This document shows positions 7,621 to 10,346 of a stretch of DNA of 64,000 bases, piece after piece. The stretch comes from Strongyloides papillosus. Its lineage: Eukaryota; Nematoda; Chromadorea; Rhabditida; Strongyloididae. The stretch is taken from positions 930,001 through 994,000 of the forward strand of contig SRSI01000046.1 in NCBI GenBank assembly GCA_005656395.1. The letters are read 5' to 3'. The notes beneath the pieces were generated by a model, which was not told the DNA's origin, did no database searches, and saw only the letters and a list, made by a program, of their open reading frames with translations. The position numbers and the translations under genes were made by a program. How positions within the stretch are numbered: position 1 is the first letter of the stretch; each line of letters starts with the position of its first letter.

Positions 7621-10346
7621 TGGAGGTTCCACCTAAGGAACAAAATAAGAAAATAAAGGATAAAGAATTATTCGACACTCTAATGGGACAGTTAAAAATG
7701 TATGAATCCGTTGACCAGGAGATAGAGCAATCATTAAGGGCTCTATGGTCAACAGGAAACTACAAGGCGGCAGAAAAGCTAATTGACAAAATGATTGGCA
7801 ATATAGACAAAGACTCTTCGAAGGCGGATAGGTTGGCTACACCGGAAGTTAAACCAGCTGTAAATGACAACACATTATTGAGAACACTTATTCCATTTGA
7901 AGGAAATGATGTTACTGAATTTAAACTATGGGTAGAAACTTATGATTTGGCTGTTTCACTAGCACATCAGACACTACCCAATGAACAGAAAGAGAAATTA
8001 AGATGTATTTATTTGGCATCCTATTTGAAAGGTCGCGCAGGACAATTACGTAAAGATGCGTATGCAAGGATGGAAGATATTACATTTGAGAGACTGATTG
8101 GATATATTGAAAATAACTTACCAGTACCTATAAGTATTGAAAGAACAGGACGGATGAGAAGGGTTTATTTCAAAAACATGACGGACGACTTTGAGGAACA
8201 CTGTAATACGTTCTTAGAAGGCACAAAAGCTGCGACAGGAGTAAGCATAGATATGTTGGCTGGACGATCTTCAGGAACAATGGAACCATTACAACAGCTT
8301 ACCAGAATTGATTTTATAAACAGCTTTCCTTTCTATATTAGGGAACATTTGGAGCAAATGGCTTTCACATCTTCTCTTTGGGAAATTAAAGATGCAGCCT
8401 TCGAACTAGTACTAAGAGAAAGAAACAAATTAAAAAGACGAAATATGAAAGTCTCTTCACCAACCACAGAGAGGAAGAACCAGCATTCCAACGAAGACAA
8501 ACGTCAAGAACGAAAACAGACACCAGGATACTTCAAATCGCGAAGATTTGTTAATACAGTTAACCCTCAACAACCTGAAGGTATCAATCATCCTTCAGAA
8601 GTTGAAGATCCGGTCGAACTTAATTTTGCAGGTCCTATAGTACCAACAGTTCTGTCAATACAGCCAGAGAAGATACCGACACATAGATCTGTTAATTTAG
8701 CATGGTGGATAGTAGTATTGGCGGTAATACCGGTAATATACATGAGTCACTATGTATGGGATTGTAATCAGGTATCATCAAAATCATGGGACATAGCAGC
8801 TCCTCATAGAATAAATTGTAATAATCCTCAAACGTGGCACTTAGAATCCAGATATGTGTTTCGCAGAACCGACAAAAATTGTACGAAAACACTGGAATTA
8901 TTAGCGGTTAGCAATAATTTCATATTGTTAATCAAGGACAACCCTACATTGTTATACAAGACAAAGGAAAATAACCAGAGATGTAATGTTTCTGCTTACA
9001 CACTCAGTAAGGGATATTTGACAAATTTTGTGGACAACATTTGGCAATTTCCAACTTTATCGCAAGAGGTGACGGATGATCACATAAGATTACCCGAGGA
9101 TATGGATGAAAGCTTAAAAGGCATAGCTATACAGTTGCTGCTATTTAAGGCGGGCATATTAGTAAGGCAACTTGACAAGACGCAATGGGATGCCTTATTT
9201 ATTAATATTTTCAATGCACATTACAAGGAAGTGCACAAAAGGCATGTATTTCGAACTATTACTTTTACATTGGTTCAGCAATTAGTAACCCCTTTATATA
9301 ATACAGCATGTGGTAGACTACAGAAGGAATTCATGGATATTAGTAAGACAATTGATCCTACGGAGAAAATGCGAATATTTTTGGAAAGGGAAGACATTAG
9401 GGCATCATACCATAAGGGTAGATACAATATTCAAACATGTACAAAAGTGAAACCAACCTCTATCTTTACGGATTATAGGTACCAAAATATTTGTTACACA
9501 TTCATGCCAGCTATAGTAAATAAATCACTCAAGTTCGTGGACCAAAATAATTATTTGCATGAACACTCCCAAGGATCCCCGTGTGTTACAATGGCTAAAG
9601 AGGAAATCCAAGAGATACAAGAGACTCAGAGATCAGATGAAGGCATTCTCGAAGCCTTAGGAGAAACAGTAAATACGTTTGAGAAGGCTGTACAAGCACT
9701 GGAACTATCAGTGATGCACGGTATTGTATTTACTTTAGGGATACTCGCTTGTATAATTATAGGTGTTTGGGTATTGAAATGCTACTGCAGGAATAAAAGA
9801 CGTGGCAATCGACAACGGAGACGTCTCTTAGGCAGAATGAGCGATATGGTGGAAATGCAACTAATGAGACCAACAGTGTCAGTAGCAGTAACACAGATAG
9901 GGAAACAACCAATGGTGGATCTCTACGTTCATCAGGAAGGGCAAACCAAAATTGCTAGGTGTCTTATTGATACAGGGGCTTGTGTTTCGTTTATACGCAA
10001 GAAATGTGTGAAGCACAATACATCTCTTTCACTTTTTACCCAGCCAATGACAGTTGCAACGGACTTTAATAATCAACCTATAAAAGCCATAGGCAAAACA
10101 TCAATCCTGTTTATATTTGGAAGAAAGAAATACGTTAAGGTGAACATATGGGTGGTGGATGACCTTAGATATGATATACTCATTGGCTCGGATGTCTTGG
10201 AAGATATGGACAGGAATAATTTGTCTGTCACGTTCAAATTAGCAGCTAATTCAATACAAATAGGCACTATAAGATATCCCTTGGTGAGGAAAGCTTCAGT
10301 GTCATATTTACAACCATATGAAGTATGGAAAACAATGCGTTCGTAG
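7596..10346 (+). CDS. A1 Gag, membrane glycoprotein-like domain and protease
   Basis: The 916-residue frame has three parts. Residues about 9-360 are Gag-like: helical, with a basic stretch at 277-320 and no CCHC zinc knuckle. Residues about 369-385 form a hydrophobic segment. A cysteine-rich region of about 320 residues follows, with Asn-X-Ser/Thr sites near 428, 464 and 642. A second membrane segment (about 709-728) and an arginine/lysine-rich tail (731-743) close this part. Residues about 765-890 are the aspartic protease, with active Asp-Thr-Gly at 792-794 and ILIGSDVL as the second conserved strand. The likely start is the ATG at 7620 at the LTR/PBS junction; the frame is also open from 7596 inside the LTR. 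It ends in TAG where A2 has tryptophan, so the stop looks like a TGG to TAG mutation. The membrane part resembles a viral envelope ectodomain in layout, but its origin is inferred. Confidence 0.88.
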   Translation: MNMLKSNNMEVPPKEQNKKIKDKELFDTLMGQLKMYESVDQEIEQSLRALWSTGNYKAAEKLIDKMIGNIDKDSSKADRLATPEVKPAVNDNTLLRTLIPFEGNDVTEFKLWVETYDLAVSLAHQTLPNEQKEKLRCIYLASYLKGRAGQLRKDAYARMEDITFERLIGYIENNLPVPISIERTGRMRRVYFKNMTDDFEEHCNTFLEGTKAATGVSIDMLAGRSSGTMEPLQQLTRIDFINSFPFYIREHLEQMAFTSSLWEIKDAAFELVLRERNKLKRRNMKVSSPTTERKNQHSNEDKRQERKQTPGYFKSRRFVNTVNPQQPEGINHPSEVEDPVELNFAGPIVPTVLSIQPEKIPTHRSVNLAWWIVVLAVIPVIYMSHYVWDCNQVSSKSWDIAAPHRINCNNPQTWHLESRYVFRRTDKNCTKTLELLAVSNNFILLIKDNPTLLYKTKENNQRCNVSAYTLSKGYLTNFVDNIWQFPTLSQEVTDDHIRLPEDMDESLKGIAIQLLLFKAGILVRQLDKTQWDALFINIFNAHYKEVHKRHVFRTITFTLVQQLVTPLYNTACGRLQKEFMDISKTIDPTEKMRIFLEREDIRASYHKGRYNIQTCTKVKPTSIFTDYRYQNICYTFMPAIVNKSLKFVDQNNYLHEHSQGSPCVTMAKEEIQEIQETQRSDEGILEALGETVNTFEKAVQALELSVMHGIVFTLGILACIIIGVWVLKCYCRNKRRGNRQRRRLLGRMSDMVEMQLMRPTVSVAVTQIGKQPMVDLYVHQEGQTKIARCLIDTGACVSFIRKKCVKHNTSLSLFTQPMTVATDFNNQPIKAIGKTSILFIFGRKKYVKVNIWVVDDLRYDILIGSDVLEDMDRNNLSVTFKLAANSIQIGTIRYPLVRKASVSYLQPYEVWKTMRS
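7621..7633 (+). promoter_or_regulatory. A1 primer-binding site, tRNA-Gln type
   Basis: TGGAGGTTCCACC follows the 5' LTR with no spacer. It is complementary to the 3' end of eukaryotic tRNA-Gln (acceptor ending GGAACCT plus CCA), from established knowledge of that tRNA. The last A of the LTR plus TG of the PBS forms an ATG at 7620 in the gag frame, giving Met-Glu-Val-Pro-Pro. Confidence 0.85.

Follow-up and report, generated by a model that had tools for sequence, protein, structure and literature searches.

Errantiviruses join a pol of the Ty3/gypsy type to an envelope (env) gene of viral origin, which is a separate open reading frame (ORF) downstream of pol. A baculovirus-type env of errantiviruses is mentioned in PMC12440569. 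Atlas virus, a belpaovirus of hookworm, carries a captured negative-strand virus glycoprotein within one Gag-Pol-Env polyprotein (PMC9094657). The mosquito Pao element Anakin has a chuvirus glycoprotein that was modelled on gB-type templates and that is also found in solo copies (PMC7642597). The env of Tas from Ascaris shows weak similarity to herpesvirus gB according to PMC9094657; it is assigned to the phlebovirus type, downstream of the polyprotein, in PMC7642597. For the glycoprotein of the Jingchuvirales, one endogenisation event with two copies was reported in nematodes, in a data set where neither Gypsy nor Copia elements had clearly captured it (PMC10084718). Here we describe A1, a long terminal repeat (LTR) retroelement of the Ty3/gypsy type in a 64-kb window of the Strongyloides papillosus genome (contig SRSI01000046.1), in which an envelope-like membrane module lies in frame between Gag and the protease. 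Positions are given in the numbering of this window, and the genome searched comprised 58.2 Mb in 79 contigs.

Results

A membrane module between Gag and protease of A1

The A1 ORF from 7596 to 10346 is open over 916 amino acids and carries a Gag-like part, a membrane module and a protease in one frame; all coding features of A1 are on the plus strand. Residues 1-364 (7596..8687) are Gag-like by position and by homology with the element E2 and the database protein P0006, both described below. This region had no zinc knuckle and no Pfam match, and its profile search against the PDB gave chance rows only. Hydrophobic segments were called by Kyte-Doolittle in windows of 19 residues. Segment 1 (residues 365-383, 8688..8744), a putative signal sequence or signal anchor, has a mean hydropathy of 2.03, and segment 2 (residues 709-727, 9720..9776), a putative stop-transfer sequence, one of 2.67. 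Between them lies the predicted ectodomain of about 320 residues (387-705, 8754..9710), which appears class III glycoprotein-like and has eight conserved cysteines (390, 408, 429, 463, 572, 615, 633 and 663) and three N-glycosylation sequons (428, 464 and 642). An Arg/Lys-rich juxtamembrane tail (residues 731-745, 9786..9830) follows segment 2. The aspartic protease region (9840..10343) was recognised by its DTGA at 9969 (residue 792), by a Pfam RVP_2 match of 19.4 bits against a cut-off of 20.3 and by its relatives in the genome. Hydropathy, reading frame and motif positions agree with the original prediction, which had placed a hydrophobic segment, a cysteine-rich region with sequons, a second hydrophobic segment and a basic tail between Gag and the DTG protease. 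With the two hydrophobic segments, a cytosol-lumen-cytosol topology is plausible.

A single in-frame stop at 10344..10346, at the boundary of protease and reverse transcriptase (RT), divides this ORF in the A1 copy from a second ORF in the same frame (10548..13124). The latter encodes RT, RNase H and integrase, with strong Pfam matches to RVT_1, RT_RNaseH, Integrase_H2C2 and rve, and the pol order protease-RT-RNase H-integrase is that of Ty3/gypsy (Metaviridae-type) elements. The coding region overlaps both LTRs. The Gag frame has its first ATG within the 5' LTR, and pol reaches its stop within the 3' LTR, so that coding sequence fills nearly all of A1 and an env gene would find no place behind pol.

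The same order in a second family and a second species

The window contains a second family, E2, with 39% identity to the Env part of A1 and again with a hydrophobic segment, an ectodomain and a hydrophobic segment between Gag and protease. Its ORF (31063-35454, plus strand) comprises a Gag-like region (31075..32310) homologous with the Gag-like parts of A1 and P0006, the membrane module (32311..33390, with the hydrophobic segments at 32311-32367 and 33334-33390) and a stretch with the basic tail, the protease (DSGA at 33613) and RT-RNase H (33391..35454). It closes at a stop, after which the frame goes on as an integrase ORF (35458-36777). The 5' LTR (30818..31046) and the 3' LTR (36763..36991) of 229 nucleotides are 100% identical, and GAAC is found on both outer sides of E2.

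When the Env part of A1 was searched against its own genome, 29 matches were obtained. Among these were three A1 copies (100, 93 and 91% identical) and three E2 copies (39%, one of them in the window), spread over four contigs, and two more decayed copies on contigs C39 and C44; the remainder were fragments and stand-alone ORFs. As far as their sequence was seen, none of the six A1 and E2 copies is free of stops. Nine of the 97 scored RT fragments were at least 58% identical to A1, and eight of these nine are accompanied on their contig stretch by matches to Env, Gag and protease, with the Gag match of the C44 copy about 8 kb off. The ninth, a decayed fragment of 152 residues, is located at C44:41828 and has no Env match nearby. 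In the database, P0006 of S. stercoralis (950 amino acids) has the order Gag, hydrophobic segment, ectodomain, hydrophobic segment, protease, and P0002 runs from Env through protease and RT to integrase, starting at the first annotated methionine. Since E2 and P0006 both have the order of A1, and since three A1 and three E2 copies lie on four contigs, an insertion artefact at the junction was ruled out.

Homologues of the A1-type ectodomain also occur in this genome as stand-alone membrane proteins, which look like a signal peptide, an ectodomain and a transmembrane segment. The stand-alone Env genes L021, L022, L023 and L024 sit in repeated stretches; L022 and L023 have 6.3 kb in common at 95% identity, with an opposite-strand ORF beside the Env gene, and at L024:5539-9900 a retroelement polyprotein is encoded in which the integrase, preceded by RT and RNase H, is followed by an extra RNase H domain.

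Aligning A1 with E2, P0006 and P0002 showed each of the eight cysteine columns to be retained in all four sequences. A sequon directly follows the fourth cysteine in three of the four, and in E2 it is located two residues further on. The last four cysteines were kept in 10 of 10 aligned relatives. Residues 633-640 of A1 read CYTFMPAI, and the relatives follow C-Y-x-x-(M/L)-P, where C, Y and P are invariant in 10/10.

The Env part looks to be under selection. The ratio of nonsynonymous to synonymous substitution (dN/dS), calculated after Nei-Gojobori for four copy pairs, was 0.12-0.21 for the Env part. Between A1 and L028, it was 0.188 for Env, 0.133 for Gag and 0.135 for the protease; between A1 and L027, where the Env part has a stop at its end, the values were 0.208, 0.139 and 0.278. 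With few differing sites in the E2 pairs, their values are rough: 0.12 for Env, 0.555 for Gag, 0.227 for protease and 0.305 for RT against L029, and 0.154, 0.548, 0.066 and 0.828 against L006.

Retroviruses commonly splice env, and the module could be a retained in-frame intron or be reached by splicing, such that the unspliced RNA encodes Gag-Env-Pol and a spliced one Gag-Pol or Env alone. Pairs of GT and AG in frame do flank the module, and E2 has an acceptor scoring 7/8 at 33484 that is in frame with a 5/8 donor. However, donors never exceeded 5/8 in either family and A1 acceptors never exceeded 6/8, as scored by a simple consensus of our own making. P0001, a database gene model of an S. 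papillosus copy, is without segment 1 and at first sight speaks for splicing, but in L003, a copy closely similar to it, a stop lies near the second cut of P0001. The model is probably a detour of the gene predictor round a stop, and P0001 was set aside as splicing evidence. We regard splicing of the module as quite unlikely.

A proposed class III-like fold of the ectodomain

Structure comparison was done with two low-confidence models of the A1 and E2 ectodomains. Each retrieved class III viral glycoproteins, namely G of negative-strand viruses and gB of herpesviruses. With the E2 model, gB occupied 48 of 50 rows among the matches listed, and the matches in BFVD were also class III; the A1 model was weaker. 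A class III-like fold is therefore supported by weak models. A disulphide-forming cysteine in the central helix is given as a signature of class III glycoproteins, and this helix is followed by a linker and a short helix (PMC7518877). The A1 model has a helix at 163-201 with C189 and then a helix at 205-213. Together with the look of the homologous stand-alone proteins, the retrieval of class III glycoproteins by both models supports the earlier proposal of an envelope-like glycoprotein module.

The E2 model was then compared with gB of human cytomegalovirus (HCMV), where residues 1-281 fall on 90-613 of gB (5cxf_A). In HCMV gB, C111 is bonded to C506, C250, the partner of C185, lies in the fusion subdomain, and C610 belongs to a conserved disulphide of the crown domain (PMC4617298). 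Assuming ungapped ends, C278 of E2 lies on C610 of gB and C23 within one residue of C111. C187 of E2 is in a long helix like C506 of gB; by cysteine layout, C23 and C187 are a candidate pair at places matching C111 and C506. We assign the other early pair, C44 and C78, to a second PH-like domain by position and size rather than by superposition. Between C23 and C187 there are 164 residues, versus 395 between C111 and C506, and after cysteine matching the counterpart of the gB pair C185-C250 is apparently gone from E2. The shortfall amounts to 231 residues, roughly the length of a fusion domain. From this shortfall and the pair without counterpart, we think that the fusion domain may be missing from the ectodomain; the cysteine layout fits a gB minus its fusion domain.

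This bears on whether the glycoprotein is a working fusogen, with fusion loops too diverged to recognise, in an element that lives, or lived until recently, as an extracellular retrovirus. The class III-like fold, the sequons, the eight cysteines, the identical LTRs and the low dN/dS would fit such an element, and a tryptophan turn after the fourth cysteine, found in 8/8 relatives that reach there, could be a membrane loop. The short spacing of the matched cysteines and the apparent lack of a C185-C250 counterpart argue against a fusogen, as does the slot being retained with another ectodomain in related elements (see below). A working fusogen is in our opinion unlikely. Of the two roles, fusogen or anchor, the apparently missing fusion domain speaks for the anchor.

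The original prediction had likened the C..LPV-type segment to glycoproteins of chuvirus-like viruses captured by arthropod retroelements. This likeness is partly supported: Monjiviricetes_fusion (PF24664) matched weakly over the C..LPV-type segment, in just one of ten family members, with 17.3 bits versus a cut-off of 27 and an E of about 0.001, and chuviruses were dropped as the named donor. The host is a nematode and not an arthropod. The fold matches do not point to one donor, as they span G of rhabdo-, borna-, nyami-, xinmo- and chu-like viruses along with the gB proteins of entomopoxviruses and herpesviruses; the absence of any group from the fold lists carried no weight. Protein database searches returned three proteins with the Env part of A1, two with a ten-row profile and four, including itself, with region 1-420 of P0002. 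Because the five organism-named proteins found are all from Strongyloides, with those of S. papillosus closest, a viral donor was not reached by sequence. One scan of viral contigs gave 34 pattern matches, none confirmed, and the profile search of Env against the PDB gave chance rows only. Baculo_19 matches (E 0.04-0.3) were likewise taken as chance.

The fusion of Gag to the ectodomain and the lack of a PDB sequence match could also suit a decayed insertion, or a Gag of the ordinary kind that is extended and happens to contain hydrophobic stretches. Against this stand the conservation of both segments and of the cysteines, the low dN/dS, the recurrence in relatives and the retrieval of class III folds; the hydropathy profile and the segments and cysteines conserved across relatives contradict chance hydrophobicity. 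We consider an extended Gag or a decayed insertion very improbable.

Another module in the same slot of related elements

Elements of the same genome with an RT 35-39% identical to A1 were analysed for what they carry between Gag and protease. L032, L033, L034, L035, L039 and L040 (contigs C1, C7, C40, C14, C5 and C14) each encode, in a single frame that is open for 1166-2057 codons of the retrieved sequence, Gag, a signal-peptide-like segment (e.g. LLCIPAAKA or LFTPCLA) and a region of about 120 residues with cysteines; a long linker then leads to another hydrophobic stretch, and the protease comes last. A module that is not of the A1 type was thus present in 6/6 related elements with a readable interval; L031, whose interval is unreadable, was left out. 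The arrangement of A1 is therefore not a lone oddity. The linker matches coiled-coil profiles in L033-L035 and looks similar in L039 and L040 (by reading, not by scan), whereas that of L032 is rich in Pro and Lys. The second stretch is above the hydropathy threshold in L032, L034 and L039, and below it in L033, L035 and L040. Since a search with the L035 ectodomain reached the L033 type with E values of 2e-4 to 1e-3, the modules of these types are probably related to each other. With hhalign, no match was observed between the Env part of the A1 type and the other module, neither for the whole nor for the N-terminal part.

To count the four sampled modules, 97 of 510 RT candidates were scored, so that the counts are lower bounds. 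At least 48 of the 97 RT matches have a module on their strand no more than 4.5 kb upstream, which is Env in 8, of the L035 type in 10, of the L032 type in 7 and of the L033 type in 23. The rows used were 8/29 from the A1 Env search, 15/26 from the L035 search, and 16/16 and 31/34 from the searches with the other modules; rows that were weak, stand-alone or overlapping another query were dropped. Of the remaining 49, four were inspected: L039 and L040 (module by reading), L041 (none) and L031 (no readable interval).

It is nearly an even chance that the module is an internal membrane anchor only, where Gag-Pol would be tethered to a membrane derived from the endoplasmic reticulum (ER) for assembly and the ectodomain would be an oligomerising relic of a glycoprotein. 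All six readable elements have the signal-peptide-like segment, the short cysteine region and the long linker in the slot, five of them with a coiled-coil look and three with a second stretch above threshold, and the fusion domain is apparently absent from the A1 type. The conserved cysteines and the crown-like motif suggest a surface role instead, and the second stretch below threshold in the other three also argues against an anchor. Two kinds of membrane protein with no detectable similarity fill the same slot, which suggests that selection may act on the anchoring as such, at this place between Gag and Pol.

RT trees contained only elements of this genome and the database proteins P0002 and P0003. 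The elements with the class III Env formed one clade in both trees (99/100 and 96/96). In the tree drawn from L024 (end branch 7.96), L031 and L032 group with the A1 clade (87/99), leaving the coiled-coil elements as a grade, whereas with L044 replacing L024 and two elements added (end branch 3.28), the elements with the other module are one clade (95/94). As the two trees disagree, the other module may be either the ancestor of the class III kind or its sister. L041, in which Gag is directly followed by the protease without a module, weighs against a general membrane slot in this lineage, and the outgroup elements, L041 excepted, were chosen for long open frames, which qualifies the survey.

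Two more gypsy-type remnants are located in the window at 40769-43585 and 53597-56023. At 53597-54301, a coiled-coil-like ORF with a weak ATG17_like match lies just upstream of an RT match, like the module of the related elements. On the minus strand, 3250-5666 contains endonuclease and RT ORFs, probably of a non-LTR retrotransposon.

LTRs and insertion site of A1

A1 is a young element of the Ty3/gypsy type, with LTRs identical where compared and a target site duplication, CGAC, on both outer sides. The left part of the 5' LTR (5959..6080) is preceded by CGAC, is identical to 13112-13233 and continues at about 7530. Nested in the 5' LTR is a palindromic insertion of about 1.45 kb (6081..7529) with the inverted ends CAGGGTGTCTCATAATTAACTCC, whose bounds are uncertain by a few bases. 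The right part (7530..7620) shows no difference to 13233-13323 and contains the first ATG (7596) of the open frame. The 3' LTR (13112..13323) is followed by CGAC. A putative primer-binding site, TGGAGGTTCCACC.. (7621..7638), adjoins the 5' LTR inside the Gag reading frame, which makes the layout very compact around 7596-7640. A tRNA scan of the window found none, and no tRNA was matched to this site.

Discussion

We consider it probable that a captured class III-type viral glycoprotein has been built into the middle of a Ty3/gypsy-type polyprotein, giving one ER-threaded Gag-glycoprotein-Pol with a membrane staple. The polyprotein would read Gag, signal or anchor, ectodomain, transmembrane segment, protease, RT, RNase H and integrase. 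In such a protein, Gag would be translated first in the cytosol. Segment 1 would then draw the ribosome to the ER, and the ectodomain would be translocated, disulphide-bonded and glycosylated, until segment 2 halts the transfer and protease-pol is made in the cytosol. The in-out-in topology is proposed because Gag precedes segment 1, the protease follows segment 2, and Gag, protease, RT and integrase are thereby kept cytosolic. Polyproteins of flaviviruses and alphaviruses are made in this manner, with a cytosolic capsid, an internal signal, a luminal ectodomain, a stop-transfer sequence and a cytosolic part. The Env part would begin as a staple linking Gag to Pol and could later be freed by signal peptidase and/or the element protease. 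By eye, with the small-residue rule, a signal-peptidase site after segment 1 is plausible in E2, P0006 and the related elements; in A1 no obvious site was seen. An oligomeric staple may bring Gag and Pol to an ER-derived membrane, possibly with additional display as a spike.

The capture of class III-like envs by retroelements of nematodes and insects (Tas, Anakin) and an env within one polyprotein (Atlas virus, Gag-Pol-Env) are on record. In the literature searched, to which most subscription papers and bioRxiv preprints did not belong, the Gag-Env-Pol order was not found. Within this literature, an Env between Gag and protease that is conserved in two families and two species is new, as are the apparently truncated class III ectodomain and the relatives with another module in the same slot. 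In retroviruses and env-carrying retroelements, Env is taken as an add-on after pol, and a conserved Gag-Env-Pol in one frame is another route, with testable predictions for topology, stoichiometry and assembly. More tentatively, a whole nematode lineage of Ty3/gypsy-type elements might follow a Gag-membrane protein-Pol plan with every polyprotein stapled to the ER at its centre; the staple would be a class III glycoprotein without fusion domain, as trimeric anchor or spike, in one clade and a signal-peptide/coiled-coil protein in the relatives. This extension is possible and somewhat doubtful. If it is true, capsid and enzymes would assemble around one membrane-anchored oligomer, a kind of assembly that we did not find described in the literature searched. 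A class III glycoprotein without fusion domain would naturally separate the trimer scaffold from the fusion machine.

The described systems each share a part of this arrangement. The flavivirus and alphavirus polyproteins resemble A1 in the proposed topogenesis; the proteins are unrelated and the analogy is one of mechanism only. Herpesvirus gB and G of the Monjiviricetes share with the ectodomain of the A1 type an N-terminal strand, a PH-like part, a cysteine-bearing central helix, a crown and a C-terminal transmembrane segment, as far as the weak models and the cysteine layout suggest (PMC4617298, PMC7518877). In contrast to them, the ectodomain has about 320 residues, no room seen for a fusion domain, and is embedded in a retroelement polyprotein. 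Tas would be a further nematode retroelement with a class III-like env, if the gB statement holds, but it is of the BEL/Pao type with the env downstream of the polyprotein. Anakin is likewise an LTR retroelement that has captured a gB-type glycoprotein, with solo copies also present; it differs as a Pao element of a mosquito, and a figure legend puts its glycoprotein last, after the integrase (PMC7642597). Errantiviruses have, like A1, a Ty3/gypsy-type pol joined with an envelope of viral origin, whereas in A1 the stop of pol is inside the 3' LTR and the Env part lies between Gag and protease. Atlas virus is, like A1, a nematode LTR retroelement with a captured glycoprotein inside a single polyprotein. 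Its env is at the C-terminus, has a class II fold like phlebovirus Gn/Gc and accompanies an RT of the Belpaoviridae (PMC9094657), whereas the env of A1 is not at the C-terminus of the polyprotein.

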